From a virus: 31,717 bases of DNA. The position numbers and the translations under genes are program-made. Shown here in pieces: positions 3,382 to 30,457 of this stretch. Each line of letters opens with the position of its first letter. The first letter of the stretch is position 1. The notes beneath the pieces are model-generated. The model ran no database searches. It saw only the letters and a list, made by a program, of their open reading frames with translations, and was not told the origin of the DNA. The DNA is taken from positions 1-31,717 of IMG/VR virus record IMGVR_UViG_3300047494_000270; one strand, written 5' to 3'.

Positions 3382-4530
3382 ATGAGGCAACCGAAGAACC
3401 AACCGAATGTCCAATCGCGGGGCCGCGACCATCACCTAGATGGGTTGCGAGGTATCGCTGCATTGGTCGTGGTTTTAGAACATTTGTCGGCGCTATTACC
3501 TGTGGCGGATTGGCATTTCGGTCAGGGACTTCGCTGGGAAGTTATTACTGCGCTTTTAAGTTTTCCCTTCAGAGCAGGAAACTTCGCGGTCTACATCTTC
3601 TTCGTTATGTCTGGGATCGTTGTCGCGAAAGCAGCCCGCGACAAACCATGGCCACTATCTCTTCTTGCGCGCTACGTGAGGTTGACACTGCCGATGCTGG
3701 CGGCAAGCCTGCTGGCGTGGCTGCTCCTCTCGGTCTACCCAGATGAGATGCCCGCGATAAGTGCATTCAAGGCGAATTACTGGACAACGAACCTCTATCA
3801 GTTCGGCGCGCCAACTCTTTGGCAAGCAGTATCTGAAGCACTATATGGAGCGTACGCTACGCTCCCTAAGCCGTTAGTGAACCCAGTTCTCTGGTCCATG
3901 CGGATTGAGCTCTGGGGATCGCTGGGTATTTTTACGTTTTACCGCTTCGTTCCAGTCACATGGCGTCTCGGCGCTCTGGCCGGCATCGCCATTTTATTGG
4001 GCGTCTCGGGCGGTTGGGCGTATATTTCCTTCGCCATCGGTGTCGCGCTTTCTGAGTCGGCCGATCGACATCAGATCAAGGGTAATCATCTGACCGGCAT
4101 GGCGATGATGGCGGTTGGCATCGGGATAGCAGCGATGGCTCCTTTGCAGGCGCTACGATATTACTCGCGCCTCGTGACGGCGATTGTTGGCTTTGAGGCC
4201 GATCTGAAAATCCTTGTCTGCACGATTGGCGCCACGTTATTAGTCGGTGGAGTGATCCTAAGCGAGAAAAGTCAGTCGTTTTTGACTTCGCGGGTCCCGC
4301 AGTTTTTGGGAACCGTCTCCTATTCCCTGTATTTGACCCATATGCCGATCCTCTACACGATCTTCGCGGCTTGGTATCTGTCTGCAGGCGCGCCACCTTC
4401 GGCTCCGTTCCTGGGCGTTTGGATGGTGGCGTTTTTGGCCATCGCGATCCCGACTGCCTATGTCGTGACAGTCATCGCTGATCGCCCGGCGACAAGGCTC
4501 ACGAAACTACGGCATCGCGTTGTCAGCTGA
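3382..4530 (+). CDS. Membrane O-acyltransferase (acyltransferase-3/OafA family)
   Basis: The 382-residue protein is an integral-membrane acyltransferase of the Acyl_transf_3 family, which moves acetyl or similar groups across the inner membrane onto surface polysaccharide, lipid or peptidoglycan. The family signature is at the N-terminus: HHLDGLRGIAALVVVLEHL (residues 17-35), with the putative catalytic His34. About ten hydrophobic segments follow, and the conserved late motif FLGTVSYSLYLTHMPIL lies around 310-330. It has only the membrane domain, with no fused SGNH domain; an SGNH esterase is encoded by the next gene. GC content is lower than in the structural genes. Such genes on phages are typically lysogenic-conversion genes that change O-antigen and block further infection. 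The exact acceptor and acyl group cannot be read from the sequence. Confidence 0.88.
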   Translation: MRQPKNQPNVQSRGRDHHLDGLRGIAALVVVLEHLSALLPVADWHFGQGLRWEVITALLSFPFRAGNFAVYIFFVMSGIVVAKAARDKPWPLSLLARYVRLTLPMLAASLLAWLLLSVYPDEMPAISAFKANYWTTNLYQFGAPTLWQAVSEALYGAYATLPKPLVNPVLWSMRIELWGSLGIFTFYRFVPVTWRLGALAGIAILLGVSGGWAYISFAIGVALSESADRHQIKGNHLTGMAMMAVGIGIAAMAPLQALRYYSRLVTAIVGFEADLKILVCTIGATLLVGGVILSEKSQSFLTSRVPQFLGTVSYSLYLTHMPILYTIFAAWYLSAGAPPSAPFLGVWMVAFLAIAIPTAYVVTVIADRPATRLTKLRHRVVS

Positions 4531-4747: not shown

Positions 4748-7048
4748 GTGTCGATCATCTATTCTCAAAGTTACGACGGCACGATCATCGGCGCGCTGCC
4801 AAGCGGATGGTCGCCGATTGACTCCGCCAACTGGGCTGTCAGTAACACCGCTTCTATTTCCGCGCCTAATTCCTTGGTTGGGCCGCTGAGCAGCGGTGAC
4901 GGCGCGCAGATTATGTATACTGGCCAATCCGCCCTCGCCGATATGGAGGTTCGCTACGACGTAGCCGTGGTCAACGGCTTTGTTGGTATCATCCTGCGCG
5001 GGTCGGCAGATTCGACGACTGCCTACATCATCATTCCTGACAACGCCGGAACGCTTAACGGCCAATGGGATGTCTATAAGCGGGTTTCTGGAAGTGTCAC
5101 TCGTATCGACACATTCAGTCCGTCGGGCCTTTCCGGAAACATCAGTATCAGAGCGCGCATCCAGGGCTCGACGATCTCGATAAGGGTTTGGGACCAGGGC
5201 ACGGCAGAGCCAGGCAGCTGGACGCATCAGTCGACCGATGGCTCAATCACGTCCGCAGGTTATCCCGGCTTGTACAACCAGTTCAACGGATCGTCGGGTG
5301 GCTCTGGCGTCGACAATTTCACCCTCGACAATCTGGTGAGTGCTTTCCTCGCCGTCAGCCCGACGTCGGTGATTGCTAGCTCGACCGGAAACACCCTCAC
5401 CCTGACAGGTACCGGCACCAGCTGGACGTCCGGCACACCAGGGTTGCCGACCTTCACCGCGTCAGGCGGCACGATTACCGCGCAGCATGTCACTTCCGCG
5501 ACCTCAGCGACGCTGACTTATACCGCTCCGAGTTCCGCCGGCACCGTCACAATCACCGATCCGGGCACCGGCACGACAGCAATACTGACCGTTTTGGCAA
5601 CGGCGGCCAGCGACTTCACCATCAGCCCAACCTCGAACGCGACCACGCCCGGTGTTGCCACCGGCGGCTACCAGGTCGCGCTTAACGGCGCCCTCGCGTC
5701 GAATGTCTCCATCGCCCTCTCCGATGGCGGCGCCGGCGGCGCGTTCTCGCCTTCCAGCCCGCTCACCTTCACCCCGGGGAATGCCGGCACGCCGCGGACT
5801 GTCACCTATACGCCGCCGGGTGGTAGTGGTGCCGGGACGATTCCGCTCGGCTTCTCCGCCACCGGCGCTTTCACGGCCTCGCATGCGGCGAGCTGTGTCG
5901 TCGGCACCGGTCCGGTCACGGTGGCCGTCAGCGACCCGAATTTGTTCTTCTCGCCCTATAATTGGCGGATGTCGGGCTCCAGCTTCGCGATTTCGGCCTG
6001 TAACGGGGCTTATATGAAAATGGGGTTCACCGGTACCTCGATCAAAATCGCGCTGAATATCGCGGGCTATGCCGCGCTGTACGGCAACGCGGCGCTGTGG
6101 CCGAAGGTCAGGTGGTCGATCGACGACGGCGCGGCTGTCGATCATCAGCTGACATCCGGCGACGCCACCCTGACCCTGGCGACAGGGCTGCCGGCCGGAA
6201 CGCATCAGCTTTACTTCTGCATGGTCTCGACGACCGACGGCTACGACCGCTGGGTCGGGCCTGGCAGCGCCGTCATCCCGACCGGCTTCATTCTCGACGG
6301 CGGGGCCGAAACCGTCGCGCCGCCGCTGAGCGCGATGCGGGTCCTGTTTCTTGGCGACAGCATCACCGAGGGCGTCAAGACCACCGGGCAAGCCAGTTCG
6401 GGCGACATCGCCAACAATGACAGCCAGCTGGAATGGTGCGCCCTGCTCGGCAAGGCGTTTCCGGCCGAGTATGGTCAGGTCGGCTATGGCGGGCTGGGCT
6501 GGATTTCGCCCAGCGCCGGCGGCAGCCCGCCCGGCGCGGTGCCGTTCTTCACGCCGGGCAACGACACGCTGTCGAGCTGGGATAAATATTCCCAGGGGCA
6601 GTCGCGGCTGGTGTCCGGCCTGTTCAGCCCGGCGCCCGATATCATCTGCATCATGCTGGGCGCGAACGACCGAACCCTGCCGGCGGGCAACGTCCAGGCC
6701 TCAGTGACGGCGGCGTTGCCGGCGATCAGGGCCGCCGCGCCCGATGCCTGGATCTTCGTCATCTATGAGGTCACCACGCTGAACCAGAAGGCCGCGGTCC
6801 TGGCCGGGTTCGATGCCTATCAGGCGGCGGCGCCGGACGGCAAATGCGCGATCGTCGATTGCGGGATCGAGGCGCATTTCAATTTCAACGACGTGCCGAC
6901 CGACATGGCCGCCGACGGCATCCACCCGGCCTATTATGCCACCGGCCAGATCGCCGGCATCGTCATGAAGCAGATTGAGGACGCGATGCAGGGCGGCGGG
7001 ACCGCGACCACCGCCGGCTATTCCCGCGCCCGGGTCGTCAATGAATAA
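4748..7048 (+). CDS. Virion-like multidomain protein with C-terminal SGNH/GDSL esterase
   Basis: This 766-residue protein starts at GTG behind GGGAG. Domains in order: a jelly-roll, LamG/concanavalin-like N-terminal domain (about 1-195), Ig-like beta modules rich in Thr/Ser/Gly (about 196-390), a further beta sandwich (about 393-525) like that preceding the catalytic domain in CE2-type esterases, and an SGNH hydrolase (about 528-750). The catalytic blocks are clear: FLGDSITEG with Ser538, MLGAND with Asn640, and DGIHP with Asp723 and His726. There is no signal peptide, so it fits a tail-spike or decoration protein that deacylates host surface polysaccharide better than a secreted enzyme. It directly follows the acyltransferase gene, with 217 bp between them. 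The substrate, and whether it is on the virion, are inferred. Confidence 0.8.
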   Translation: MSIIYSQSYDGTIIGALPSGWSPIDSANWAVSNTASISAPNSLVGPLSSGDGAQIMYTGQSALADMEVRYDVAVVNGFVGIILRGSADSTTAYIIIPDNAGTLNGQWDVYKRVSGSVTRIDTFSPSGLSGNISIRARIQGSTISIRVWDQGTAEPGSWTHQSTDGSITSAGYPGLYNQFNGSSGGSGVDNFTLDNLVSAFLAVSPTSVIASSTGNTLTLTGTGTSWTSGTPGLPTFTASGGTITAQHVTSATSATLTYTAPSSAGTVTITDPGTGTTAILTVLATAASDFTISPTSNATTPGVATGGYQVALNGALASNVSIALSDGGAGGAFSPSSPLTFTPGNAGTPRTVTYTPPGGSGAGTIPLGFSATGAFTASHAASCVVGTGPVTVAVSDPNLFFSPYNWRMSGSSFAISACNGAYMKMGFTGTSIKIALNIAGYAALYGNAALWPKVRWSIDDGAAVDHQLTSGDATLTLATGLPAGTHQLYFCMVSTTDGYDRWVGPGSAVIPTGFILDGGAETVAPPLSAMRVLFLGDSITEGVKTTGQASSGDIANNDSQLEWCALLGKAFPAEYGQVGYGGLGWISPSAGGSPPGAVPFFTPGNDTLSSWDKYSQGQSRLVSGLFSPAPDIICIMLGANDRTLPAGNVQASVTAALPAIRAAAPDAWIFVIYEVTTLNQKAAVLAGFDAYQAAAPDGKCAIVDCGIEAHFNFNDVPTDMAADGIHPAYYATGQIAGIVMKQIEDAMQGGGTATTAGYSRARVVNE

Positions 7049-12262: not shown

Positions 12263-12493
12263 ATGATGATAAATCGCAATTCAGTTTTCTGGGCTGCCTT
12301 CTGGGCGGGGTTAGCTAGCCCGGCGTCGGTTTATGCTGCGCCTGTTCCGTATTACGCCTATATGGGTAATTACAGCCTACCGCTGAGCTTTATGCAGGTT
12401 GGGTTCGCCTTAAGCCACTCATACTCACAAGTTGTAAATGACGGACAGTCCATCGCCACTGACACCGGAACAGATTCCGTCGCCACCGTCTGA
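12263..12493 (+). CDS. Small secreted or membrane-anchored protein
   Basis: With the start at ATG 12263 the product is 76 residues and opens with a good signal peptide: MMINRNS, then hydrophobic VFWAAFWAGLASPASV, then a YAA-type cleavage region. The mature part is about 50 residues (PYYAYMGNYSLPLSFMQVGF and on). The frame is open further left, with another ATG at 12128 that would give 121 residues; I prefer the later start because of the signal peptide. The 372 bp before it (11891-12262) is lower in GC and shows no convincing gene or strong promoter. The end overlaps the DUF2335 gene by 56 nt. The function is unknown. Confidence 0.45.
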   Translation: MMINRNSVFWAAFWAGLASPASVYAAPVPYYAYMGNYSLPLSFMQVGFALSHSYSQVVNDGQSIATDTGTDSVATV

Positions 12494-19245: not shown

Positions 19246-20415
19246 ATGGCCGACAACACCATCCAAATCGGCTTCGACGTCGGCACCGACGATCTGCAGA
19301 GCGGGCTGGATAAGGCGGTGCAGGATTTCAACGCGACCTGCGCGGCGATTCAGCAGACGATTTCCGGTGTCGCCGCGAACGTGCAGCAGGCGGTTCCGCA
19401 GCTGATCAGTTTCCAGCAGGCTTTGGACCAGGGCCCCAGCCCTTCAAAGCGCAAGGCAGAGGAGGCGCAATTCGACGATCAGGTCGCGCATGTGCAGGAA
19501 CTGCGCAACCTGAACCAGCTCTCCGCCGATCAGGCGATGTCTCTGGACGTCCAGATCGAGAATGCGAAGTTCACCCAGCTGAGCGGGGAAATCCAGGACG
19601 AATACGATGCCAGCGCGAAAAAGCTGGCAAACCAACAGAAATACCAGGCCCAGCTCGACCAGCTGGAGCTTCAGCACGATTCCAAGCTGCGGCAGCTGAA
19701 CGAGAAGGAAATCGCCGAGACCGTGCAGGCCTGGCAGCAGATGCTGGCGCCGATCGGCAATGCCTTTTCCGCGTCGCTGACCGGCATGATCACCGGCCAG
19801 GAGAATTTCCGCCAGGCGCTGGCCAATATCGGCAATGCCATCATCGGCGACTTCGTGAACATGGCGGTCAAGCGCGCGACCAACTGGATCATCTCCGAAG
19901 CGACGATGACCTCGGCATCGCAGGCCGGCGATATCGCGCGGGTGGCCTCACAGGATAGGGCGATCACGGCGGGGAAAACCGCAGAGGCGGTGGCCGGCTC
20001 CGCATCGGTCTTCGGCGACGCCAACAAGGCGGCGTCCGGCGCCTATAGCGCGGTGGCCGGCATTCCCATCGTCGGCCCGATCCTGGCGCCGGCGGCGGCG
20101 GTCGCGGCCTTTACGGCGGTGATGGCCTATGACGTGTTCTCGGCCGAGGGCGGTTTCGACATCCCCGCCGGCCTGAACCCCGTCACGCAGCTGCATGAGC
20201 GCGAGATGGTGCTGCCGGCCAGCATCGCCGAGCCGCTGCGATCGGGCTTGGCCGGCGGCGACAACCGCGCCGGCAGCGGCAACCGCGTCGGCGGCGATAT
20301 CCACATCCATGCAGTCGATGCCGCCAGTTTCCAAAGGCTGCTTTCGAATAACAAGGGCGCGGTGGCCAAGGCGTTGCGCGGGGCGCACCGCGCGTTCGAT
20401 CCCGCCCTGGCGTAA
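19246..20415 (+). CDS. Tail tape measure protein (short)
   Basis: At 389 residues this is small for a tape measure protein. Order: an N-terminal domain (DVGTDDLQSGLDKAVQDFNATC), a long coiled coil with few prolines (about 65-165), a stretch like lambda gpH C-terminal tape domains (PIGNAFSASLTGMITGQENFRQALANIGNAI), an Ala-rich hydrophobic segment (about 275-300), and the common end GGFDIPAGLNPVTQLHEREMVLPASIAEPL and HIHAVDAASFQ. The usual rule of about 0.15 nm per residue predicts a tail near 60 nm. The gene follows a hairpin and GGAG. It could be a shortened copy of a longer tape measure; no frameshift is visible. Confidence 0.85.
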   Translation: MADNTIQIGFDVGTDDLQSGLDKAVQDFNATCAAIQQTISGVAANVQQAVPQLISFQQALDQGPSPSKRKAEEAQFDDQVAHVQELRNLNQLSADQAMSLDVQIENAKFTQLSGEIQDEYDASAKKLANQQKYQAQLDQLELQHDSKLRQLNEKEIAETVQAWQQMLAPIGNAFSASLTGMITGQENFRQALANIGNAIIGDFVNMAVKRATNWIISEATMTSASQAGDIARVASQDRAITAGKTAEAVAGSASVFGDANKAASGAYSAVAGIPIVGPILAPAAAVAAFTAVMAYDVFSAEGGFDIPAGLNPVTQLHEREMVLPASIAEPLRSGLAGGDNRAGSGNRVGGDIHIHAVDAASFQRLLSNNKGAVAKALRGAHRAFDPALA

Positions 20416-21042: not shown

Positions 21043-21906
21043 ATGAAAACCGTATCCGACGAATTGCGCGCCATCCTGGGCTCCAGCCAGTTCTATATGG
21101 CGGATTGCTACAGCTTCATCCTGGCAGACGGCACCACGGTCCGCTACACGACCGCGGAAACCGCGATCACCAACCAGGCAACGGGGCATGTGTTCGCCGC
21201 CTCCGGCCCGTTCTTCGAGCGCTCCCGGGTCAAGTTCCAGACCGGCGTGCAGGTCGATGAGCTGGACATCACGCTGACCGCGCGGCCCGGCGACATCATG
21301 TTCCCCGGCGGCCCAGCCTGGTTGCCGGCATTGCGCGCCGGTGTGCTGGATGGCGCCGAGGTACAGCTGGACCGCGCTTTCATGCCGGCATTCGGCGACA
21401 CCTCGGCCGGGCTGGTGACATTGTTCTATGGACGGGTGGTCGAAGTCGATGTCGGGCGCACGGCGGCGACGCTGAAGGTCAATACGCATCTGGAGTTGCT
21501 CAGCCTGCAATGGCCGTGGCGGCTGTTTCAACCTGGCTGTTCGCGCACCCTGTTCGATGCCGGCTGCACGCTGAGCAAGGCGGCCTATGCCCATGCCTGC
21601 GCCGTCGCCGCTTCGTCCAGCGTCCATCTTCTGCAAACCACGCTGACCCAGGCGGACGGCTGGGCCTCGCTCGGCACACTGACCTTCGGCGGCGGTGTTC
21701 TCACCGGCCAATCCTTCGCCATCAAGTCCCAGACCGGCGGAGCGCTCGACCTGCTGGTCCCGCTGCCATCCCTGCCGGCAGTGGGCGACCCGCTCACCGT
21801 CTATCCTGGCTGCGACAAGACCAAGGCGACCTGCACGACGAAGTTCGCCAACCTGCAGCATTTCCAGGGAGAGCCTTATGTGCCAGTGCCGGAGACGGCG
21901 GCTTAG
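21043..21906 (+). CDS. DUF2163 tail hub protein (RcGTA gp13-like)
   Basis: This 287-residue protein matches DUF2163 (TIGR02218), the hub at the tail tip. It has FERSRVKFQTGVQVDELDITL, VQLDRAFMPAFGDT, FYGRVVEVDVGRTAATLKVN, and the end FANLQHFQGEPYVPVP. Four cysteines lie at 166, 175, 257 and 264; the intervals of 9 and 7 equal those I recall for lambda gpL, which binds an iron-sulfur cluster. A fifth cysteine, at 186, is not in that pattern. Its last 113 bases overlap, tail to tail, a gene on the other strand. Confidence 0.9.
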   Translation: MKTVSDELRAILGSSQFYMADCYSFILADGTTVRYTTAETAITNQATGHVFAASGPFFERSRVKFQTGVQVDELDITLTARPGDIMFPGGPAWLPALRAGVLDGAEVQLDRAFMPAFGDTSAGLVTLFYGRVVEVDVGRTAATLKVNTHLELLSLQWPWRLFQPGCSRTLFDAGCTLSKAAYAHACAVAASSSVHLLQTTLTQADGWASLGTLTFGGGVLTGQSFAIKSQTGGALDLLVPLPSLPAVGDPLTVYPGCDKTKATCTTKFANLQHFQGEPYVPVPETAA

Positions 21907-22324: not shown

Positions 22325-22791
22325 TATTTCTGCGCCGACTTTGCGACCTTCAGCATGCGTTCCAGCAGGCGGACGCCGAAGCGAAAAGATAGCCAGCCCA
22401 GCCCCTGATCGCGGACCGAGAAGATCAGCTGCTGGGTGTTTGAGTCGATGCCGAAATCGTAGTGGGTGCCCTTGATCGGATGGGCGACGGCTGCTGAGAA
22501 TTCGGTCGGCGCCGGTTCGGGCGCGATTGGTTCTACGGCTACCGGTTGCGCCGGCGCGGGCGTTGCCGGCGGTTCGGGCAGCATGCGCTCGCGCACCTGC
22601 GCCAAGCCGGCCATCAGCCCCTCCAGCTGGTCGGCGCTGAGTACCAGGCCGGCCAGCAGCTTGCCGTCCTTGCCGATTCTGAGATGCATCGATTTGCGGT
22701 CGTTTTCCAGCACCATGGCGAGCTGCGGCCCGGCTTGGCCTGAGTCCGGCAGGTCGAGTTGCGGCTGATCCGGTCCGGGCTCGTTGGGCAT
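22324..22791 (-). CDS. Hypothetical protein, reverse strand, first gene of a two-gene operon
   Basis: The 155-residue protein begins acidic and Pro-rich (MPNEPGPDQPQLDLPDSG), has a compact beta-helix part (RKSMHLRIGKDGKLLAGLVL; SADQLEGLMAGLAQVRERM), then a Pro/Ala linker (about 71-95), and a C-terminal domain with GTHYDFGIDSNTQQLIFSVR and FRFGVRLLERMLKVAK. It is not recognised. It is divergent from the peptidase gene, with 48 bp between the two starts, so any promoter must lie in 22792-22839 or inside the peptidase gene. Its coding strand is opposite to that of the late operon. Confidence 0.6.
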   Translation of the reverse strand: MPNEPGPDQPQLDLPDSGQAGPQLAMVLENDRKSMHLRIGKDGKLLAGLVLSADQLEGLMAGLAQVRERMLPEPPATPAPAQPVAVEPIAPEPAPTEFSAAVAHPIKGTHYDFGIDSNTQQLIFSVRDQGLGWLSFRFGVRLLERMLKVAKSAQK

Positions 22792-22839
22792 CGCGATGCA
22801 TCCTCATGTTCCGCCGTTTCGCAATCCCCGGGGTACGCC

Positions 22840-23283
22840 ATGGACTCCCGTCCGGCAAGCACGTCCGAACAGCGCGCGTCGGTGGTGGCCGAGGCGCTCG
22901 GCTGGCTCAATACGCCATACCACCATGCCGCGCGGATCAAGGGCGCCGGCGTCGATTGCGCGATGCTGCCGGCTTCGGTCTATCGCGCCGCCGGGCTGAT
23001 CCCGGATTTCGCGGTCGATCATTACCCGCCGGACTGGCACCTGCACCGCGACGCCGAACGCTATCTCGACATCGTCACGCGCCATGCAAGCGAGGTTCCG
23101 GCGCCGACCGGGGCGGGCGACTTCGTGCTCTATCGCTGGGGCCGCTGCTTCGCCCATGGCGCGATCGTCATCGCCTGGCCGCAGATCGTCCATGCCGTGA
23201 TCCATGTCGGCGTCGTGCTGGACACTGGCGACGCCGGCCGGCTGGCAGGGCGGCCGCGCCGCTTTTTCACCTTGTGGGGCTGA
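22840..23283 (+). CDS. NlpC/P60-type tail peptidase (RcGTA gp14-like)
   Basis: I start at ATG 22840, giving 147 residues. The fold is NlpC/P60: WLNTPYHHAARIKGAGVDCAMLP, with catalytic Cys40, then GDFVLYRWGRCFAHGAIVI, with His106, and IHVGVVL. In GTAs and related phages this small cell-wall peptidase sits at the tail tip and opens peptidoglycan during entry. The core is of normal length. There is no signal peptide, as expected for a virion-borne enzyme. No strong ribosome site is seen; the divergent reverse gene begins 48 bp to the left, so the insertion may have removed it. It is followed 2 nt later by the tip protein. Confidence 0.88.
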   Translation: MDSRPASTSEQRASVVAEALGWLNTPYHHAARIKGAGVDCAMLPASVYRAAGLIPDFAVDHYPPDWHLHRDAERYLDIVTRHASEVPAPTGAGDFVLYRWGRCFAHGAIVIAWPQIVHAVIHVGVVLDTGDAGRLAGRPRRFFTLWG

Positions 23284-23285
23284 AC

Positions 23286-26200
23286 ATGTTCGGAAGCGGT
23301 GAAACCCAGGCCCAGACCCAGACGGTGGCATCTGGCGTCGATATCCAAAGCTCATGCTATGGCGGCGTCGTGCCGGTCATCTATGGGCGGACGCGGCTGA
23401 CCGGCAACCTGATCTGGTACGGCGATTTCCAGGCGATCCCGGTGCACTCCTCATCCGGCAATGGCGGCAAAGGCGGCGATAGCGGCCACGGCTCCACCAG
23501 CTATGACTATAAGGCGTCGTTCGTCTTCGCGCTGGGCGAAGGCACGCTGGCCGATGTCCAGAATGTGTGGGCGTCCAAGACCAAGACCGCGTTCGCCAAT
23601 TCGAAGCTGGGCTTCGCCAGCGGCGACCTGGGGCAGGCGCCGTGGGGGTACCTCACCACCAAATTCCCCGACGCGGCGATATCCTATGCCGGGACCGGTT
23701 ACGTCTATGCCATGGCCTATGATCTGGGCCAGTCGGCCCAGCTGCCCAACCTGTCCTATGAGGTGACGGGCATCGGCGCCAACGCCATCGCCGGGCTGCC
23801 CGATGCCGACCCGGGGGTGGTGGTCGGCGATGTGCTGACCAATCCGCGCTACGGTGTCGGCTTCCCGGCCCAGCGCATGCCGGCCGGCGGTTTCGCCGTC
23901 TTCTCGGGTTACTGCCGGGCCGCCGGACTGATGATCTCGCCAGTGTTCGACACCCAGTCGGACGCCGCCGGACAGTTGAACGCCATCGTCCAAAGCTGCA
24001 ATGCGGAATTCGTCTGGTCGGGCACGCAGCTGACCATCGTACCCTATGGCGACCAGAATCTGTCGGCCAACGGCGCCAGCTATACCGCTCCCTCGGCGCC
24101 GTTGTTCAGCCTGACCGACGACGACTTCCTGTGCGTCGACGGCCAGGATCCGGTGCAATGTTCGCGCGCCCGGCCGTCCGACCAGATGAACGCGATCCGG
24201 TTCGAATTCCTCGATCGCGCCCATTCCTATAACGCCAATATCGTCGAGGCGAAGAACCAGGCGGCGATCGAGACCTATGGGCTGCGCGGCGAGCAACCCG
24301 AGCAGATGCATCAGTTCTGCGACGCCGGCGCGGCCAAGAAGGCGGCGACGCTGAAGCTGCAGCGCCAGTCGGTCCGCAACGCCTACAGCTTCACGCTGGG
24401 CTGGCGCTATTGCCTGCTCGACCCGATGGACATCGTCGAGATTACTGACTCTGGGCTTGGGCTGAACCAGCAATGGGTTCGCATCCTGTCGCTGGAAGAG
24501 GATGAGAACGGCAATATCCAGGTCACCGCCGAGGAGTATCTCGGCGGCACAGGCCATGCGCCGATCTATGAGTTCGAGCCGGGCTCGCCCTACGACGTCG
24601 ATTACAATGTCGCTCCCGGCAATGTCGACGCGCCGCTGATCTTCGAGCCGCCGCCGGTGATGCTGGCGGCCCGCTCGATCACCGCGCCGCAAATCATGAT
24701 CGGCGCTTGCGGCGGGGCGAATTGGGGCGGCTGCGACATCTATCTGTCGCTCGACAATGCCACCTATAAGCGAATGGGCCGGATCACGGCGCCGTCGCGC
24801 CAGGGCGTGCTGGCCAACACGCTGGCCAGCGGCGCCGACCCGGACACGGCCCACACGCTATCGGTCGATATGAGCGAGAGCGGACGTACGCTCGGCTCCG
24901 GCACCCAGGCCGACGCCGATGCGTTCCGGACGCTGTGCTATGTCGACGGCGAGCTGATCGCCTATGAAACCGCCGTCCTGACCGGCAGCGACCTGTACGG
25001 CCTGACCTATCTGCGGCGCGGCGTTTACGGCTCGGGAATCGAAGCCCATGCCGCCGGCACGGAATTCTGCCGGCTCGACGAAAGCGTCGTGTCGTTCGAC
25101 CTGCCGATCACCCCGGTCTCCTATGTCGGCAAGACGCTCTACCTGAAATTCCTGTCCTTCAACATCTATGGCGGCGGCCAGCAGGAGCTTTCCGACGTCT
25201 CGCCCTACACCTATGTGCCCGGTGGCAGCGGCGTCTTCGTCTATCCGCCGACCGGCGTCAGTTTCACCGTCGGCGCGGAACAGCAGAAGGACGGCACCTG
25301 GATTTCCTTCGGCGTCGTCGCTTGGACGGCGTCGCAAGATCCGCTGTTCGACCAGTATGAGGTGCAATACCGGCTGCACACCGGCCCTGGCCCATGGATC
25401 AGCTGGCGCGGCGGCCGGGACACGACCAGTTTCCGCATCAGCCCGCTGCCGAACAACACGGCCTATGACGTCCAGGTCCGCGCGGTGCGGACCAGCGGCC
25501 CGTTCTATTCGGCCTGGGACCAGACGCTCAACATCACCACCAGCGGCAAGACCACCGCGCCGCCGGCGCCGACCGGCCTCGGCGTCCATGGCGGCTATCG
25601 GCAGATCACGCTCGATTGGACCGCCTCGGCCGAGAACGATGTCGCCTGGTATGAGGTCTGGGAGGGATCGACCAATGTGCTGGCCAGCGCGTCGCGGATC
25701 GCGCTGATCAACGCCACCCATTATGTCCGGCCGGGCCTCAACCTGTCCGACACGAGATTCTATTGGATCAGGGCGCAGGACACTTCGGGGAATTTCAGCG
25801 CCTATCTGGGGCCGGGCAGCGCGACCACCAACGCGGTGGACGCGGCCGATATCACCGGACAGCTCATCAACGCACAGATCGCCGACGCCGCGATCACGGG
25901 CGCCAAGATCGCCGACGCGACGATCGACGTCACCAAGGCCGCGACCGGCTACGGAATGCCGGCCTACGGGTCGAGCCTGCCGAGCAGCGGTCCGAACGTC
26001 TATGAAGGCGCGCTGTTCCTCGATACGGCCGATGGCAAGCTCTACCGGTACCACTCCGGCGCCTGGACGGCAGCTGTTCCGGGCGCCGATATCGCCGCCG
26101 GCTCACTTGGCATCACGGCTTTTGCCTCCGGCATCACGCCGGTGCAGATCGTGTCGTCGCTGCCGACGACCGCGACCGAGGGTCAGGTCGTCATGTTGAC

Positions 26201-29200
26201 GACTGATGGCAAGCTTTACCGGTATCACTCGGGCGCCTGGACAGCCGCGGTCCCGGGTACCGATATCACCACGGGCTCGCTGGGCATCACGGCCTTCGCC
26301 TCGGGTATAACGCCGGTGCAGATCGTGTCGTCCTTGCCGGGCAGCGGGACCGAAGGTCAGGTCGTTATGCTGACGACCAATGGCAAGCTCTACCGCTACC
26401 ACTCCGGTGCCTGGACGGCCGCGGTCCCGGGTACCGATATTACCACGGGCTCGCTAGGCATTACGGCCTTTGCATCGGGCATAACGCCTGTCCAGATCGT
26501 CTCATCACTGCCGGGTACCGCGACCGAGGGACAGGTCGTCATGCTCACTAGCGACGGCAAGCTGTACCGGTATCACTTGGGTGCCTGGACGGCCGCCGTG
26601 CCTGGCGCCGACATCTCGACCGCGTCGCTCGATATCACCAAATTCGCCTCGGGAATCACTCCGGTCCAGATCGTGTCGTCGCTGCCCGGCACCGCGACCG
26701 AGGGGCAGGTCGTGGTGTTGACCGCGGACGGCAAACTCTACCGCTATCATTCGGGAACGTGGACATCCGTCGTCGCGACGGGTGACTTGAGCGGCACCAT
26801 CAGCAGCGCGCAGATCGCCGCCGGCGCGGTCACCGCCGCCGCGATAGCCGCCAACGCGGTGACTTCCGCCGCCATCGCGAGCGGCGCCGTTACGAATTCC
26901 GAGCTCGCCGCCGCCGCGGTTCAGGGATCGAATATCGCGGCCAACGCAATCGACATTACCAAGATCGCGACCGGTTATGGCCTGCCCGCCAGCGTGACCG
27001 GCACGCTGCCGACGAGCGGCAATCTGGTCTACGAGGGCTCGCTCGTCATCCGGACGAACGACGGCAAGCTGTACCGATATACCCGCGGGGCCTGGACGGT
27101 CGCGACCGATGGCGGCGACATCAATCCGGGATCGATCGCCACGGCGGCGATCGCGGCCGGAGCGATCACCACGGCGTTGCTGGACGCCGGCGCGGTTACG
27201 GCCACGAAGCTCTATATCGGCGACACCACCAATCTGATTACCGATCCCACTTTCCTGGATTCCAATTATTGGGAAATAGTCGACCCGATCGGAACAGTGG
27301 CGAGTTTTTCGTCGACCAATATAGGCTTGGGAGCCGCGTCGCAGATATTTTTTGATTGCTCCGCCATTCCCGCGAGCGATACTCAGCTGTTCCAATTCAA
27401 CACGCCTTCGGCCGGAGCGCCCGCGGGGCTGCGGTCAATCTCGGTCACGCAAGGCCTGAATTACCGGGCACTCGCATATGTCCGCTCGCGGCTCTCCTGC
27501 AACAAGAACCTGCAGCTCCGTGTAGCTTTCCTCGATCATACAATGACGGCAATCGGCACCAGCTTGGTTGCGGTTACCGTGGATCCGACCACGGCCACAG
27601 GAGCCGACGGCATAGAGGTTAGCGGCACCGTGACCGCACCCGCCGGCGCCGCCTACGCGTCTTTCTTTGTCCGCATCAGCGGGAACGCTCCCGACACATC
27701 GGGCGGCGCTGGCCAGTGGTACCTCGCCAACCCACGTCTTGAGCGGCAGGTGACGGGAACGCTGATCCAGGATGGGTCGATCACGACCGACCATATTACC
27801 GCTGCCGGCATCAGCGGCACGGCGATTACCGCTGGCACGATCACCGCTGCTCAGATCGCGGCCGGCACGATCACGGCGGGTAATATCGCGGCCAGCACGA
27901 TCACCACCGGCCAGATAGCTGCCAGCACGATACAGGGCAGCGATATCGCCGCCGGTACGATCACAGGCAGCAATATTCAGGCTGGCACGATCACGGCAAC
28001 CCAAATCGCCGCCAATACGATCACGGCCGGGCAGATCGCCGCCGGGGGCGTCAGCACCTCGGAACTCGCGGCCCTGGCGGTCACGGCGGCCAAGATTGCT
28101 GCCAATACCATCACGGCCGCCCAGATACAGGCCGGGACGATCACTTCGAACGAGATCGCCGCCAACACGATCACCGCCGGCAATATCGCGGCCAACACCA
28201 TAACAGCAGGCCAGATCGCGGCCGGTGCGATCAACACGTCGGAACTCGCGGCCTTGGCGGTCACGGCTGCCAAGATCGCGACCAATACGATCACGGCCGC
28301 CCAAATACAGGCCGGGACGATCACGTCGAACGAGATCGCCACCAACACGATCACCGCCGGCAATATCGCGGCCAACACCATAACGGCCGGGCAGATCGCG
28401 GCCGGCGCGGTCAACACGTCGGAACTGGCGGCCAACGCGGTCACGGCGGCCAAGATCGCGGCCAATACGATCACCGCGCTCCAGATCGCGGCGAACACGA
28501 TCGGCGCCGGTCAGATTCAGGCAGGCGGGATCACCACGGCGGCCATCGCGGCTGGCGCGATCACGACCGCATTGCTGGGGGCGGGCGCGGTCACGGCCAC
28601 CAAACTCTATATCGGCGACACGACGAATCTGGTCACCGACCCCACCTTCCTCGATCTCTCCTATTGGCAAGTCACAGATCCGATCGGCACCGTCGCGAGC
28701 TATTCGGCTACGAATATCGGGCTGGGTGTGCCCAACCAGATATTTTTCGATTGCTCCGCCATTCCGGCGAGCAATTCTCAGCTGTTCCAGTTCAACACAC
28801 CCACGGCCAGCGCGCCCGCTGGGGTGCAGCCTATATCGGTCACTCAAGGACTGAATTACCGGGCACTGGCATATGTGCGCTCGCGCCTTTCGTGCAACAA
28901 AAACTTGCAGCTGCGCGTGGCCTTCCTCGACAATACCATGGCGGCCATAGGCACGAGCCTTGTCGCTATTGAGGTGACTCCGGCGTCGGCTACAGGCACG
29001 TCCGGCATAGAGGTTAGCGGCACCGTGACCGCGCCTGCCGGGGCCGCTTACGCGTCCTTCTTCGTGCGTGTTAACGGCGGCGACCCGGACGGATCGGCGG
29101 GCGCCGGCCAGTGGTATCTCGCCAATCCGCGCCTTGAGCGCCAGGTGACCGGGACGCTCATCCAGGATGGGTCGATCACGACCGCGCATATTACCGCCGC

Positions 29201-29885
29201 CGGCATCGATGCCAGCGCGATCACCGCCGGCACGATCACCGGCGACCGGATGGAAGCCAACTTCATCGACAGCGAGACTTTCTCGACGATCCATGGCTCG
29301 GGTCAGCCATTCATCGAGATCAACGGGCACGCCGTCACGATCAGCGGCCATGTCTATGGCCCGTGGTTCAAGGCGAACGACGGCACCCACGACCGCGTCG
29401 TCATGGGCCGGTTTCAGGATGCCTGGGGCCTGTGGATCAACGATGCGTCCGGCAATCCGGTTTTCGAAGAGGCGACGCTGGCCAGCGGCGTGGTCGCCAC
29501 GATCAACGTCAAACCCGGCAATATCACCGCCTCCGCTTCCGCGTCGGTGGCGAATGGCCCCTTCGGCAATGGCGGCTGGCAGGTCGCGGCGTCATCGACG
29601 ATCACTTTGTACGACAATGCGATCGTGGTCGCGCTTGCCAATGTGCTGCTGGGCTACTCCTCCGGTCCCAGAACCTGGGGCCTGAAACTGACGGTCGACG
29701 GCGGCGACGTCGCCCTGACCCAGCCCGGGATCGCCAACACCCAGACGGGACTGTCGATCTCCTGGTCTGGGACGCTGAGCGGCTCGTCAGGCGGCACGTC
29801 CCACACCATCACCCTGTCCTGGAACGCCGACAGCACGGTCCAGATCGACGGCGGAACACTCTCGATTCTGGGGCTGCAGCGATGA
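23286..29885 (+). CDS. Giant tail-tip/host-specificity fibre protein (RcGTA gp15 / lambda J type)
   Basis: The 2199-residue protein starts at ATG 23286. Residues 1-640 are the tip part (YGGVVPVIYGRTRLTGNLIW; TFVFALGEGT-like GEGTLADVQ; LQRQSVRNAYSFTLGW), of the phage-tail_3/J type. Two FN3 domains follow (about 651-758 and 759-853). Then come four full and one partial 58-residue repeats (about 917-1162), a carbohydrate-binding-like module (1293-1509), a pentad-repeat shaft (TITA-x-QIAA-x; 1510-1757), a near copy of the module (1758-1974) and a C-terminal knob (1975-2199). It would contact the host surface. The sequence is GC-rich and uniform, so the repeats probably arose within the phage. Its stop overlaps the next start (ATGA). 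Confidence 0.9.
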   Translation: MFGSGETQAQTQTVASGVDIQSSCYGGVVPVIYGRTRLTGNLIWYGDFQAIPVHSSSGNGGKGGDSGHGSTSYDYKASFVFALGEGTLADVQNVWASKTKTAFANSKLGFASGDLGQAPWGYLTTKFPDAAISYAGTGYVYAMAYDLGQSAQLPNLSYEVTGIGANAIAGLPDADPGVVVGDVLTNPRYGVGFPAQRMPAGGFAVFSGYCRAAGLMISPVFDTQSDAAGQLNAIVQSCNAEFVWSGTQLTIVPYGDQNLSANGASYTAPSAPLFSLTDDDFLCVDGQDPVQCSRARPSDQMNAIRFEFLDRAHSYNANIVEAKNQAAIETYGLRGEQPEQMHQFCDAGAAKKAATLKLQRQSVRNAYSFTLGWRYCLLDPMDIVEITDSGLGLNQQWVRILSLEEDENGNIQVTAEEYLGGTGHAPIYEFEPGSPYDVDYNVAPGNVDAPLIFEPPPVMLAARSITAPQIMIGACGGANWGGCDIYLSLDNATYKRMGRITAPSRQGVLANTLASGADPDTAHTLSVDMSESGRTLGSGTQADADAFRTLCYVDGELIAYETAVLTGSDLYGLTYLRRGVYGSGIEAHAAGTEFCRLDESVVSFDLPITPVSYVGKTLYLKFLSFNIYGGGQQELSDVSPYTYVPGGSGVFVYPPTGVSFTVGAEQQKDGTWISFGVVAWTASQDPLFDQYEVQYRLHTGPGPWISWRGGRDTTSFRISPLPNNTAYDVQVRAVRTSGPFYSAWDQTLNITTSGKTTAPPAPTGLGVHGGYRQITLDWTASAENDVAWYEVWEGSTNVLASASRIALINATHYVRPGLNLSDTRFYWIRAQDTSGNFSAYLGPGSATTNAVDAADITGQLINAQIADAAITGAKIADATIDVTKAATGYGMPAYGSSLPSSGPNVYEGALFLDTADGKLYRYHSGAWTAAVPGADIAAGSLGITAFASGITPVQIVSSLPTTATEGQVVMLTTDGKLYRYHSGAWTAAVPGTDITTGSLGITAFASGITPVQIVSSLPGSGTEGQVVMLTTNGKLYRYHSGAWTAAVPGTDITTGSLGITAFASGITPVQIVSSLPGTATEGQVVMLTSDGKLYRYHLGAWTAAVPGADISTASLDITKFASGITPVQIVSSLPGTATEGQVVVLTADGKLYRYHSGTWTSVVATGDLSGTISSAQIAAGAVTAAAIAANAVTSAAIASGAVTNSELAAAAVQGSNIAANAIDITKIATGYGLPASVTGTLPTSGNLVYEGSLVIRTNDGKLYRYTRGAWTVATDGGDINPGSIATAAIAAGAITTALLDAGAVTATKLYIGDTTNLITDPTFLDSNYWEIVDPIGTVASFSSTNIGLGAASQIFFDCSAIPASDTQLFQFNTPSAGAPAGLRSISVTQGLNYRALAYVRSRLSCNKNLQLRVAFLDHTMTAIGTSLVAVTVDPTTATGADGIEVSGTVTAPAGAAYASFFVRISGNAPDTSGGAGQWYLANPRLERQVTGTLIQDGSITTDHITAAGISGTAITAGTITAAQIAAGTITAGNIAASTITTGQIAASTIQGSDIAAGTITGSNIQAGTITATQIAANTITAGQIAAGGVSTSELAALAVTAAKIAANTITAAQIQAGTITSNEIAANTITAGNIAANTITAGQIAAGAINTSELAALAVTAAKIATNTITAAQIQAGTITSNEIATNTITAGNIAANTITAGQIAAGAVNTSELAANAVTAAKIAANTITALQIAANTIGAGQIQAGGITTAAIAAGAITTALLGAGAVTATKLYIGDTTNLVTDPTFLDLSYWQVTDPIGTVASYSATNIGLGVPNQIFFDCSAIPASNSQLFQFNTPTASAPAGVQPISVTQGLNYRALAYVRSRLSCNKNLQLRVAFLDNTMAAIGTSLVAIEVTPASATGTSGIEVSGTVTAPAGAAYASFFVRVNGGDPDGSAGAGQWYLANPRLERQVTGTLIQDGSITTAHITAAGIDASAITAGTITGDRMEANFIDSETFSTIHGSGQPFIEINGHAVTISGHVYGPWFKANDGTHDRVVMGRFQDAWGLWINDASGNPVFEEATLASGVVATINVKPGNITASASASVANGPFGNGGWQVAASSTITLYDNAIVVALANVLLGYSSGPRTWGLKLTVDGGDVALTQPGIANTQTGLSISWSGTLSGSSGGTSHTITLSWNADSTVQIDGGTLSILGLQR
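26034..26771 (+). repeat. 174-bp tandem repeats in the tip gene
   Basis: Starts of GKLYRYHSGAWTAAVPG-type units fall at 26034, 26208, 26382, 26556 and 26730, exactly 174 bp apart; the last is partial. The codons differ at many third positions between copies, so they are old or have drifted under selection on protein. A further diverged copy lies near 27063. Confidence 0.9.
27162..27813 (+). repeat. First copy of a duplicated binding-like module
   Basis: This 652-bp segment recurs at 28557-29208, at a constant offset of 1395 bp. Both begin with AIT-TALL-x-AGAVTATKLYIGD and end with QVTGTLIQDGSITT-x-HITAAGI. The fold is probably a jelly roll (LRVAFLD; ASFFVRI; GQWYLANPRLER). Confidence 0.85.
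28050..28454 (+). repeat. 180-bp higher-order repeats in the fibre shaft
   Basis: The shaft is made of 10-residue, two-pentad units. Within it a 60-residue block beginning with TSEL recurs at 28050, 28230 and, in part, 28410, 180 bp apart. The last copy changes to AANAV. Such spacing gives a rigid, regular fibre. Confidence 0.85.
28557..29208 (+). repeat. Second copy of the duplicated binding-like module
   Basis: A near copy of 27162-27813 on the far side of the shaft. Many silent changes and some amino-acid changes (SNYWEIVDP against LSYWQVTDP) show that it is not a recent assembly duplicate. Confidence 0.85.
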
Positions 29886-30457
29886 CCACTCTCTATTTCA
29901 TCTACCGGGACGATCCGGGTCCGGTGCTGTGGTCGTGCAGCGGCGTGACCCCGCCGGACCTGTCGTTCGACGCGACATTGCACGCGATCCAGCCCCCGGC
30001 CGGCACGCCGGACACGCCCGGTGCCTATATGATCCAGGGCGGGGCGCCGGTGCCGCGCACGGCCACCCTTGCCGAGAACCAGTTCGCCAAACGAACCGCC
30101 GCGGCTGCCCAGTACGGCGCGCTGATCGTCGCCGGCTTCACCTATCAGGGGGTGCTGTTCCAGATCGACGGCGACGCCCAGGCCCAAATGGCGGCGATGG
30201 GCGTGATGGCATTGGGCAGTATCACCGACCCGACGGGCAGCCCGTGGCCCGGCGGATTCTATTGGGTCGCGGCCGATAACAGCCATGTCGCGATGGACGC
30301 GGCGGCCATGTACGCCTTCGGCCGCGCGGTTGCCGCCTATGTCAGCGCCTGCGTGCTGAGGCTGCGGGCGATCAAGGACGCGATAGCCGGCGCGGCCGAC
30401 CAAGCCACGCTGGATGCGATCGATGTGACCGCCGGGTACCCAGCGGCATCCAACTAG
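29882..30457 (+). CDS. DUF4376-type fibre-associated protein
   Basis: The start at ATG 29882 overlaps the tip protein stop by 4 nt; the longer frame to the left is a shadow of the fibre gene. The 191-residue protein has an N-terminal beta part (LYFIYRDDPGPVLWSCSG; DATLHAIQPPAGTPDTPG) and a C-terminal half of DUF4376 type, with ENQFAKRTAAAAQYGALIV, FTYQGVLFQIDGDAQAQMAAM, GFYWVAADNSHVAMDAAAMYAF and a closing helix. DUF4376 proteins occur at the fibre end of many phages, perhaps in fibre assembly or attachment. It closes the tail block before a terminator. Confidence 0.78.
   Translation: MTTLYFIYRDDPGPVLWSCSGVTPPDLSFDATLHAIQPPAGTPDTPGAYMIQGGAPVPRTATLAENQFAKRTAAAAQYGALIVAGFTYQGVLFQIDGDAQAQMAAMGVMALGSITDPTGSPWPGGFYWVAADNSHVAMDAAAMYAFGRAVAAYVSACVLRLRAIKDAIAGAADQATLDAIDVTAGYPAASN

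Follow-up and report, generated by a model that had tools for sequence, protein, structure and literature searches.

The window (the whole stretch of 31,717 nucleotides analysed here, IMG/VR record IMGVR_UViG_3300047494_000270), which comes from an uncultivated tailed phage, encodes a J-type tail-tip protein whose distal part probably forms a central tail fibre, in which pentad linkers carry KLYRY units and CBM-type modules and which ends in an exchangeable tip. Repeats occupy the distal two thirds of this protein. With K for a unit, M for a module and p for a pentad run, its order is p5-K-K-K-K-K-p12-K-p7-M-p21-p11-p14-p8-M-p6-tip. The three repeat scales are one system, since the units carry pentad linkers and the same pentads precede and follow the modules. 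The order common to related proteins is p-K-p-K-p-M-p-M-...-tip, and it is found again in dozens of J proteins from phages and prophages. The features are collected in Table 1.

Table 1. Features of the J-type protein gene in the window (L numbers are related loci from IMG/VR).
Feature	Position	Strand	Basis
J-type tail-tip / host-specificity protein, 2199 aa	23286..29885	+	phrog_1101, Phage-tail_3 and Rcc01698_C matches; start shared with relatives
Conserved J core (hub-binding part)	23286..25250	+	75-82% identical in nearest relatives
Fibronectin-III-like region	25251..25823	+	Pfam fn3 2e-4, under curated cut-off; 62-76% identical to L002-L004
Five tandem 58-residue units (KLYRY segment of about 45 aa plus short pentad linker)	25938..26807	+	
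Pentad linker, unit 5 to unit 6	26784..26978	+	
Sixth KLYRY unit, at the position of the single unit of L002-L004	26979..27110	+	
Predicted jelly-roll (CBM-type) module A with flanking pentads	27156..27842	+	
Decapeptide/pentad shaft, 60-residue blocks in the middle	27822..28601	+	Periodicity; Pfam Decapeptide 2.9e-7, under cut-off
Predicted jelly-roll module B, 83% identical to A, 1395 bp downstream	28551..29237	+	
Pre-tip domain, conserved in L002-L004 and L007	29241..29492	+	
C-terminal tip domain, about 130 aa	29493..29882	+	Common to L004, L006, L007 and L008; replaced in L002, L003 and L005

Gene context and start of the J-type protein

The 31,717-base virus record carries terminase, portal, protease, head-tail adaptor, tape measure, hub and lysis genes in order. 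Around the J gene, the order is portal, tape measure (19246-20415), hub (21043-21906; PF09931, PF09356), NlpC/P60-like, J, DUF4376 and cell-wall hydrolase. The protein was assigned to the J type both by its core domains (Phage-tail_3, PF13550, at 1.1e-26, which passes the cut-off, and Rcc01698_C at 1.5e-14) and by its place behind the tape measure, hub and NlpC/P60 genes. Against the GTA megatron equivalog NF048004 it scored 141.7 bits, well below the cut-off of 800. It is like lambda gpJ, Rcc01698 and phrog_1101 (J-type or GTA-megatron-type proteins) in having the Phage-tail_3 and Rcc01698_C domains; such proteins are likewise placed after tape measure and hub genes and have a fibre-like distal extension. 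The window's protein differs in its unusually long distal part, which far exceeds theirs and bears six KLYRY units, two modules and a shaft of 54 pentads.

The frame that holds the J protein is open over 22806-29885. Residues 1-160 of this long ORF overlap a tail gene in another frame (22759-23283), which has a minor tail protein family match and only a sub-threshold NlpC/P60 match. A start at 22806 was rejected because of this overlap and because no family match or relative covers residues 1-160. Since the phrog_1101 match (3e-111) begins at residue 160 of the long ORF and the relatives begin there as well, ATG 23286 is most likely the true start. Positions 25230-29885 had been presented in the preliminary description as a fibre on its own. 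They are instead the distal part of one J-type protein, and a separate fibre gene starting at 25230 was ruled out by the single frame shared with the J core.

Several neighbouring genes were recorded. The tape-measure match spans just 389 aa, which suggests that the very long tip protein belongs to a short tail. The DUF4376 protein (29888-30457) lies immediately downstream of J and, from its position, is possibly a fibre assembly factor. Between terminase and portal, an acyltransferase-3 protein of the O-acetyltransferase type (3382-4530, 8.5e-27) adjoins a 766-aa protein with GDSL esterase and CE2_N acetylxylan-esterase-type domains (4748-7048); this pair could add and remove O-acetyl groups on the host surface polysaccharide.

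KLYRY units and pentad shaft

Identity at fixed lags was compared with that of shuffled sequences (2000 shuffles per test); in no repeat test did any of the 2000 come near the observed identity. The DGKLYRY/NGKLYRY motif starts at 26031, 26205, 26379, 26553 and 26727, in steps of exactly 174 bp, and identity at lag 58 was 77% against 8% after shuffling (maximum 15%). The motif positions and this periodicity bear out the five evenly spaced 58-residue repeats described previously. A sixth unit, absent from that list, starts at 27060, 333 bp past the fifth. In the PDB, the KLYRY region matched an antibody light chain at 0.02, which was put down to chance.

The shaft is about 54 pentads long. Its identity was 50% at lag 10 and 65% at lag 60, against 16% after shuffling (maximum 23%), and its DNA is built of 180-bp blocks (2.7 copies, 87%); the 10-residue units in 60-residue blocks that had been proposed were thus recovered. 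The model PF25296 ('Decapeptide repeat region') matched four of the five shafts compared, the window's shaft scoring 30.7 bits (E 2.9e-7), short of the 45-bit curated cut-off. The Pfam pentapeptide model gave no match in the shaft. In profile searches, the shaft (27756-28625) matched repeats of Legionella IcmE/DotG at 2e-7 and the synthetic solenoid 4yfo at 0.0066. Homology to IcmE/DotG, which belongs to an unrelated secretion machine, was rejected and the match taken as a similar repeat pattern: the shaft, the IcmE repeats and the synthetic solenoids have in common an aliphatic residue every five positions. A monomer model of the shaft had a pLDDT of 46 and no confident fold. As a rough guide, 290 residues would span about 7 nm if folded as a four-sided solenoid and about 25 nm in a fold of the triple beta-spiral type. 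By analogy with the Douge central fibre, which is a C3 trimer, the fibre is likely trimeric.

Jelly-roll modules and tip

Modules A and B are 82-83% identical in protein and 79% in DNA, and residue identity at lag 465 was 74% against 10% after shuffling. Two copies at a 1395-bp offset, one on either side of the shaft, were therefore found as previously described. Their homology extends from about 27115 to 27849, slightly beyond the 217 residues given before, because the flanking pentads were copied as well.

A model of the module was obtained with AlphaFold2 from 45 homologous modules (pLDDT 75.5). Its best structural match was the Douge gp20 NTD (residues 164-322; Z 14.7, rmsd 2.7, 146 aligned), and it also matched CBM16 (Z 13.7), CBM4 (Z 13.0) and the C-terminal parts of the Klebsiella K2-2 and CBA120 tailspikes. 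Profile searches with the module returned gp20 at 3e-11 and CBM16 at 2e-7. Pfam CBM_4_9 was matched by 10 of the 45 homologous modules (best 3e-9); module A itself had no CBM match in Pfam. As modelled, the module has a CBM-type jelly-roll fold, the same as that of the CBM16/CBM_4_9 families (Z 13-14). The fold alone is no proof of glycan binding, because meprin MAM domains and enzymes, which have other roles, score Z 12-13 against the same model.

In Douge, the gp20 NTD and the fibre tip-CTD bind mycobacterial surface glycans when expressed, so that two glycan-binding domains stand at different distances on one fibre (PMC13033339), an arrangement that the preliminary description had proposed for the protein studied here. 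Douge gp20 (8ZDO/8ZDP) has one CBM-type module near the fibre start and another CBM-type domain at the end, with a stem between them. Binding is demonstrated in Douge; in modules A and B it is putative, from the likeness of fold. Nor do the Douge accounts describe the two domains as recent duplicates or the stem as a decapeptide array (PMC13033339).

The tip of the window's protein is 49% identical to that of L004. It is at least as good a candidate receptor head as the modules and may be the main one, since the tip is exchanged among relatives, as receptor-binding parts typically are.

Copy number among relatives and exchange of modules

Related J cores were collected from 38 IMG/VR loci. The nearest relatives (L002, L003 and L004, core 75-82% identical) encode proteins of 1396-1437 aa with one unit, one module and hardly any shaft, their pentad runs being 4-6 long. 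L005 and L006 (66%) are without units, modules and shaft, and L007 (66%) combines two units, spaced 56 residues, with a 32-pentad shaft and has no module. The J gene of L007 carries an in-frame TGA at position 12398, with a long open frame on both sides, and is either a broken gene or the product of a sequencing error. A search with the 58-residue region added a second group of 23 loci, many with isolate-genome-type IMG identifiers, in which up to five modules and shafts of up to 54 pentads were found. One of the loci (L053, 8487-9311) has a 54-pentad shaft, equal to the window's, and no confident full-length module. Searching IMG/VR with module A alone and narrow patterns found no relative; module relatives were found by an iterative profile on the fetched loci. 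At the DNA level, the phage collection gave no matches.

Across the relatives there are 0-6 units, 0-5 modules and about 6-54 pentads. Comparison of repeat number, a check suggested with the preliminary description, thus gave a widely varying, not a constant, number. The modules of L002-L004 are 38-45% identical to those of the window, against 75-82% in the cores; from this far greater divergence we infer that the distal part probably came from another lineage.

Gain and loss of whole modules were followed in the prophages of this second group. Those with the first 700 residues 91-97% identical have 3, 4 or 5 modules. Over 1059 residues, L045 and L051 share 97% identity; past that point they are set apart by a single clean insertion of 218 residues that holds one module. 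Clean indels of at least 150 aa ended in pentad runs on both sides in 17 of 17 cases, pentads being 28% of distal residues; these 17 come from overlapping pairs in which one event can be counted more than once, so there are fewer independent events, and placement in pentads is helped by sliding within repeats. The breakpoints are those of prophages outside the window's lineage. Within 100 residues on each side of the module breakpoints, exact direct repeats were only 9-36 bp long and the longest never lay at the breakpoints, so that strict homology-driven deletion is not demonstrated at the DNA level. The nearest relative of a module was in another protein for 74 of the 77 modules, which points to shuffling. 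The two modules of the window are nearest each other (82%), which marks them as a true internal duplication. These comparisons support modular growth and loss over evolutionary time.

The same relatives bear on a purely structural reading, in which units, pentads and jelly rolls give length or trimer stability and the C-terminal tip makes all receptor contact. The tip is common to L006 and L008, both without units, modules and shaft, and is swapped in other relatives; L007 has a long shaft without any module; and jelly rolls of the same class are found in proteins with other roles. We nevertheless consider this reading rather unlikely, as the nearest fold is that of the Douge fibre domain, which binds mycobacterial glycans when expressed alone (PMC13033339), and the modules of the sister prophages are diverse and exchanged, as is expected of binding domains and not of spacers.

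Age of the copies

Divergence between copies was estimated by NG86 for units 2-5, the modules and the shaft blocks, and the J core of L002-L004 was used as a yardstick. The modules differ by a dS of 0.85 and a dN of 0.11, units 2-5 by 0.6-1.8 and 0.04-0.27, and the shaft blocks by 0.5-0.8 and 0.06-0.25; the J core differs from those of L002-L004 by a dS of 0.60-0.66. As dS between copies is mostly at least about 0.65, the copies date from about the time of the split from L002-L004 or from before it. Their dN/dS is roughly 0.05-0.45, and the copies are under purifying selection, with the protein conserved. At the DNA level they are 65-86% identical, and exact repeats reach no more than 43 bp at the 180-bp offset, 30 bp at the 1395-bp offset and 23 bp at the 174-bp offset. 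An assembly artefact was rejected as unlikely, since the copies differ at 14-35% of bases and no exact repeat exceeds 43 bp.

These values also bear on a contingency-type switch, in which the arrays would often lengthen or shorten the fibre within the phage population by recombination or slippage. In-frame arrays at three scales and copy numbers that differ among relatives agree with such a switch, and there is an experimental precedent in Enterococcus phage EfV12-phi1, in which 1.8-kb in-frame duplications of the tail fibre arose within days during coevolution (PMC6365445). Active recombination, however, should homogenise the array, and the copies have diverged from each other mostly as much as, or more than, the phage has from other phages. 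With copies this old and exact repeats this short, frequent length change within the population is not favoured, and we regard a switch of this kind as very improbable; frequent switching in the present population is unlikely and rare events are possible. The earlier suggestion that the fibre grows and shrinks by recombination thus holds over evolutionary time, given the copy-number differences and the module indels ending in pentads, and is doubtful as present-day length change in the window's phage.

Discussion

Fibre duplication and module shuffling have already been published (PMC6365445, PMC10579305, PMC6949934, PMC10684548). In-frame duplications or tandem domain arrays are likewise present in tail fibre or tail-associated proteins of EfV12-phi1, of Alteromonas phage A5, with a knob duplication (PMC10579305), and of crAss-like phages, with BACON tandem repeats (PMC6949934). 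The domains differ from those described here, and the EfV12-phi1 copies arose within days, whereas the copies in the window are old.

In the central fibre that we favour, the tip, and possibly the two jelly-roll modules too, would most likely touch the surface polysaccharide, and the linkers and KLYRY units would determine how far it reaches and how its parts are spaced. The pentad linkers, whose sequence is similar throughout, would serve as joints for the insertion, loss or swapping of whole modules by recombination. In the window's phage, a segment made of a module and its pentad junction was probably duplicated in tandem, the junction between the module copies probably grew into the long shaft, and the KLYRY unit was amplified to six. 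These events are old, and purifying selection maintains the copies.

A wider role of the linkers is put forward tentatively. Decapeptide linkers may act in J-type fibres generally as recombination joints: being in frame, low in complexity and near-universal, they could allow whole carbohydrate-binding heads to be inserted, deleted, duplicated and exchanged without breakage of the fibre; the number and spacing of heads would then evolve independently of the tip.

Large as it is, the protein is in other respects an ordinary case of a modular fibre design that is widespread. For phage fibres of a common but little-described kind, it supplies a clear list of parts and a grammar. It also shows how putative sugar-binding heads can differ in number, spacing and identity without putting core or tip out of frame. 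Should the linkers indeed act as joints, this would explain how such phages keep pace with changing surface polysaccharides and would give testable rules for reading unannotated J proteins.
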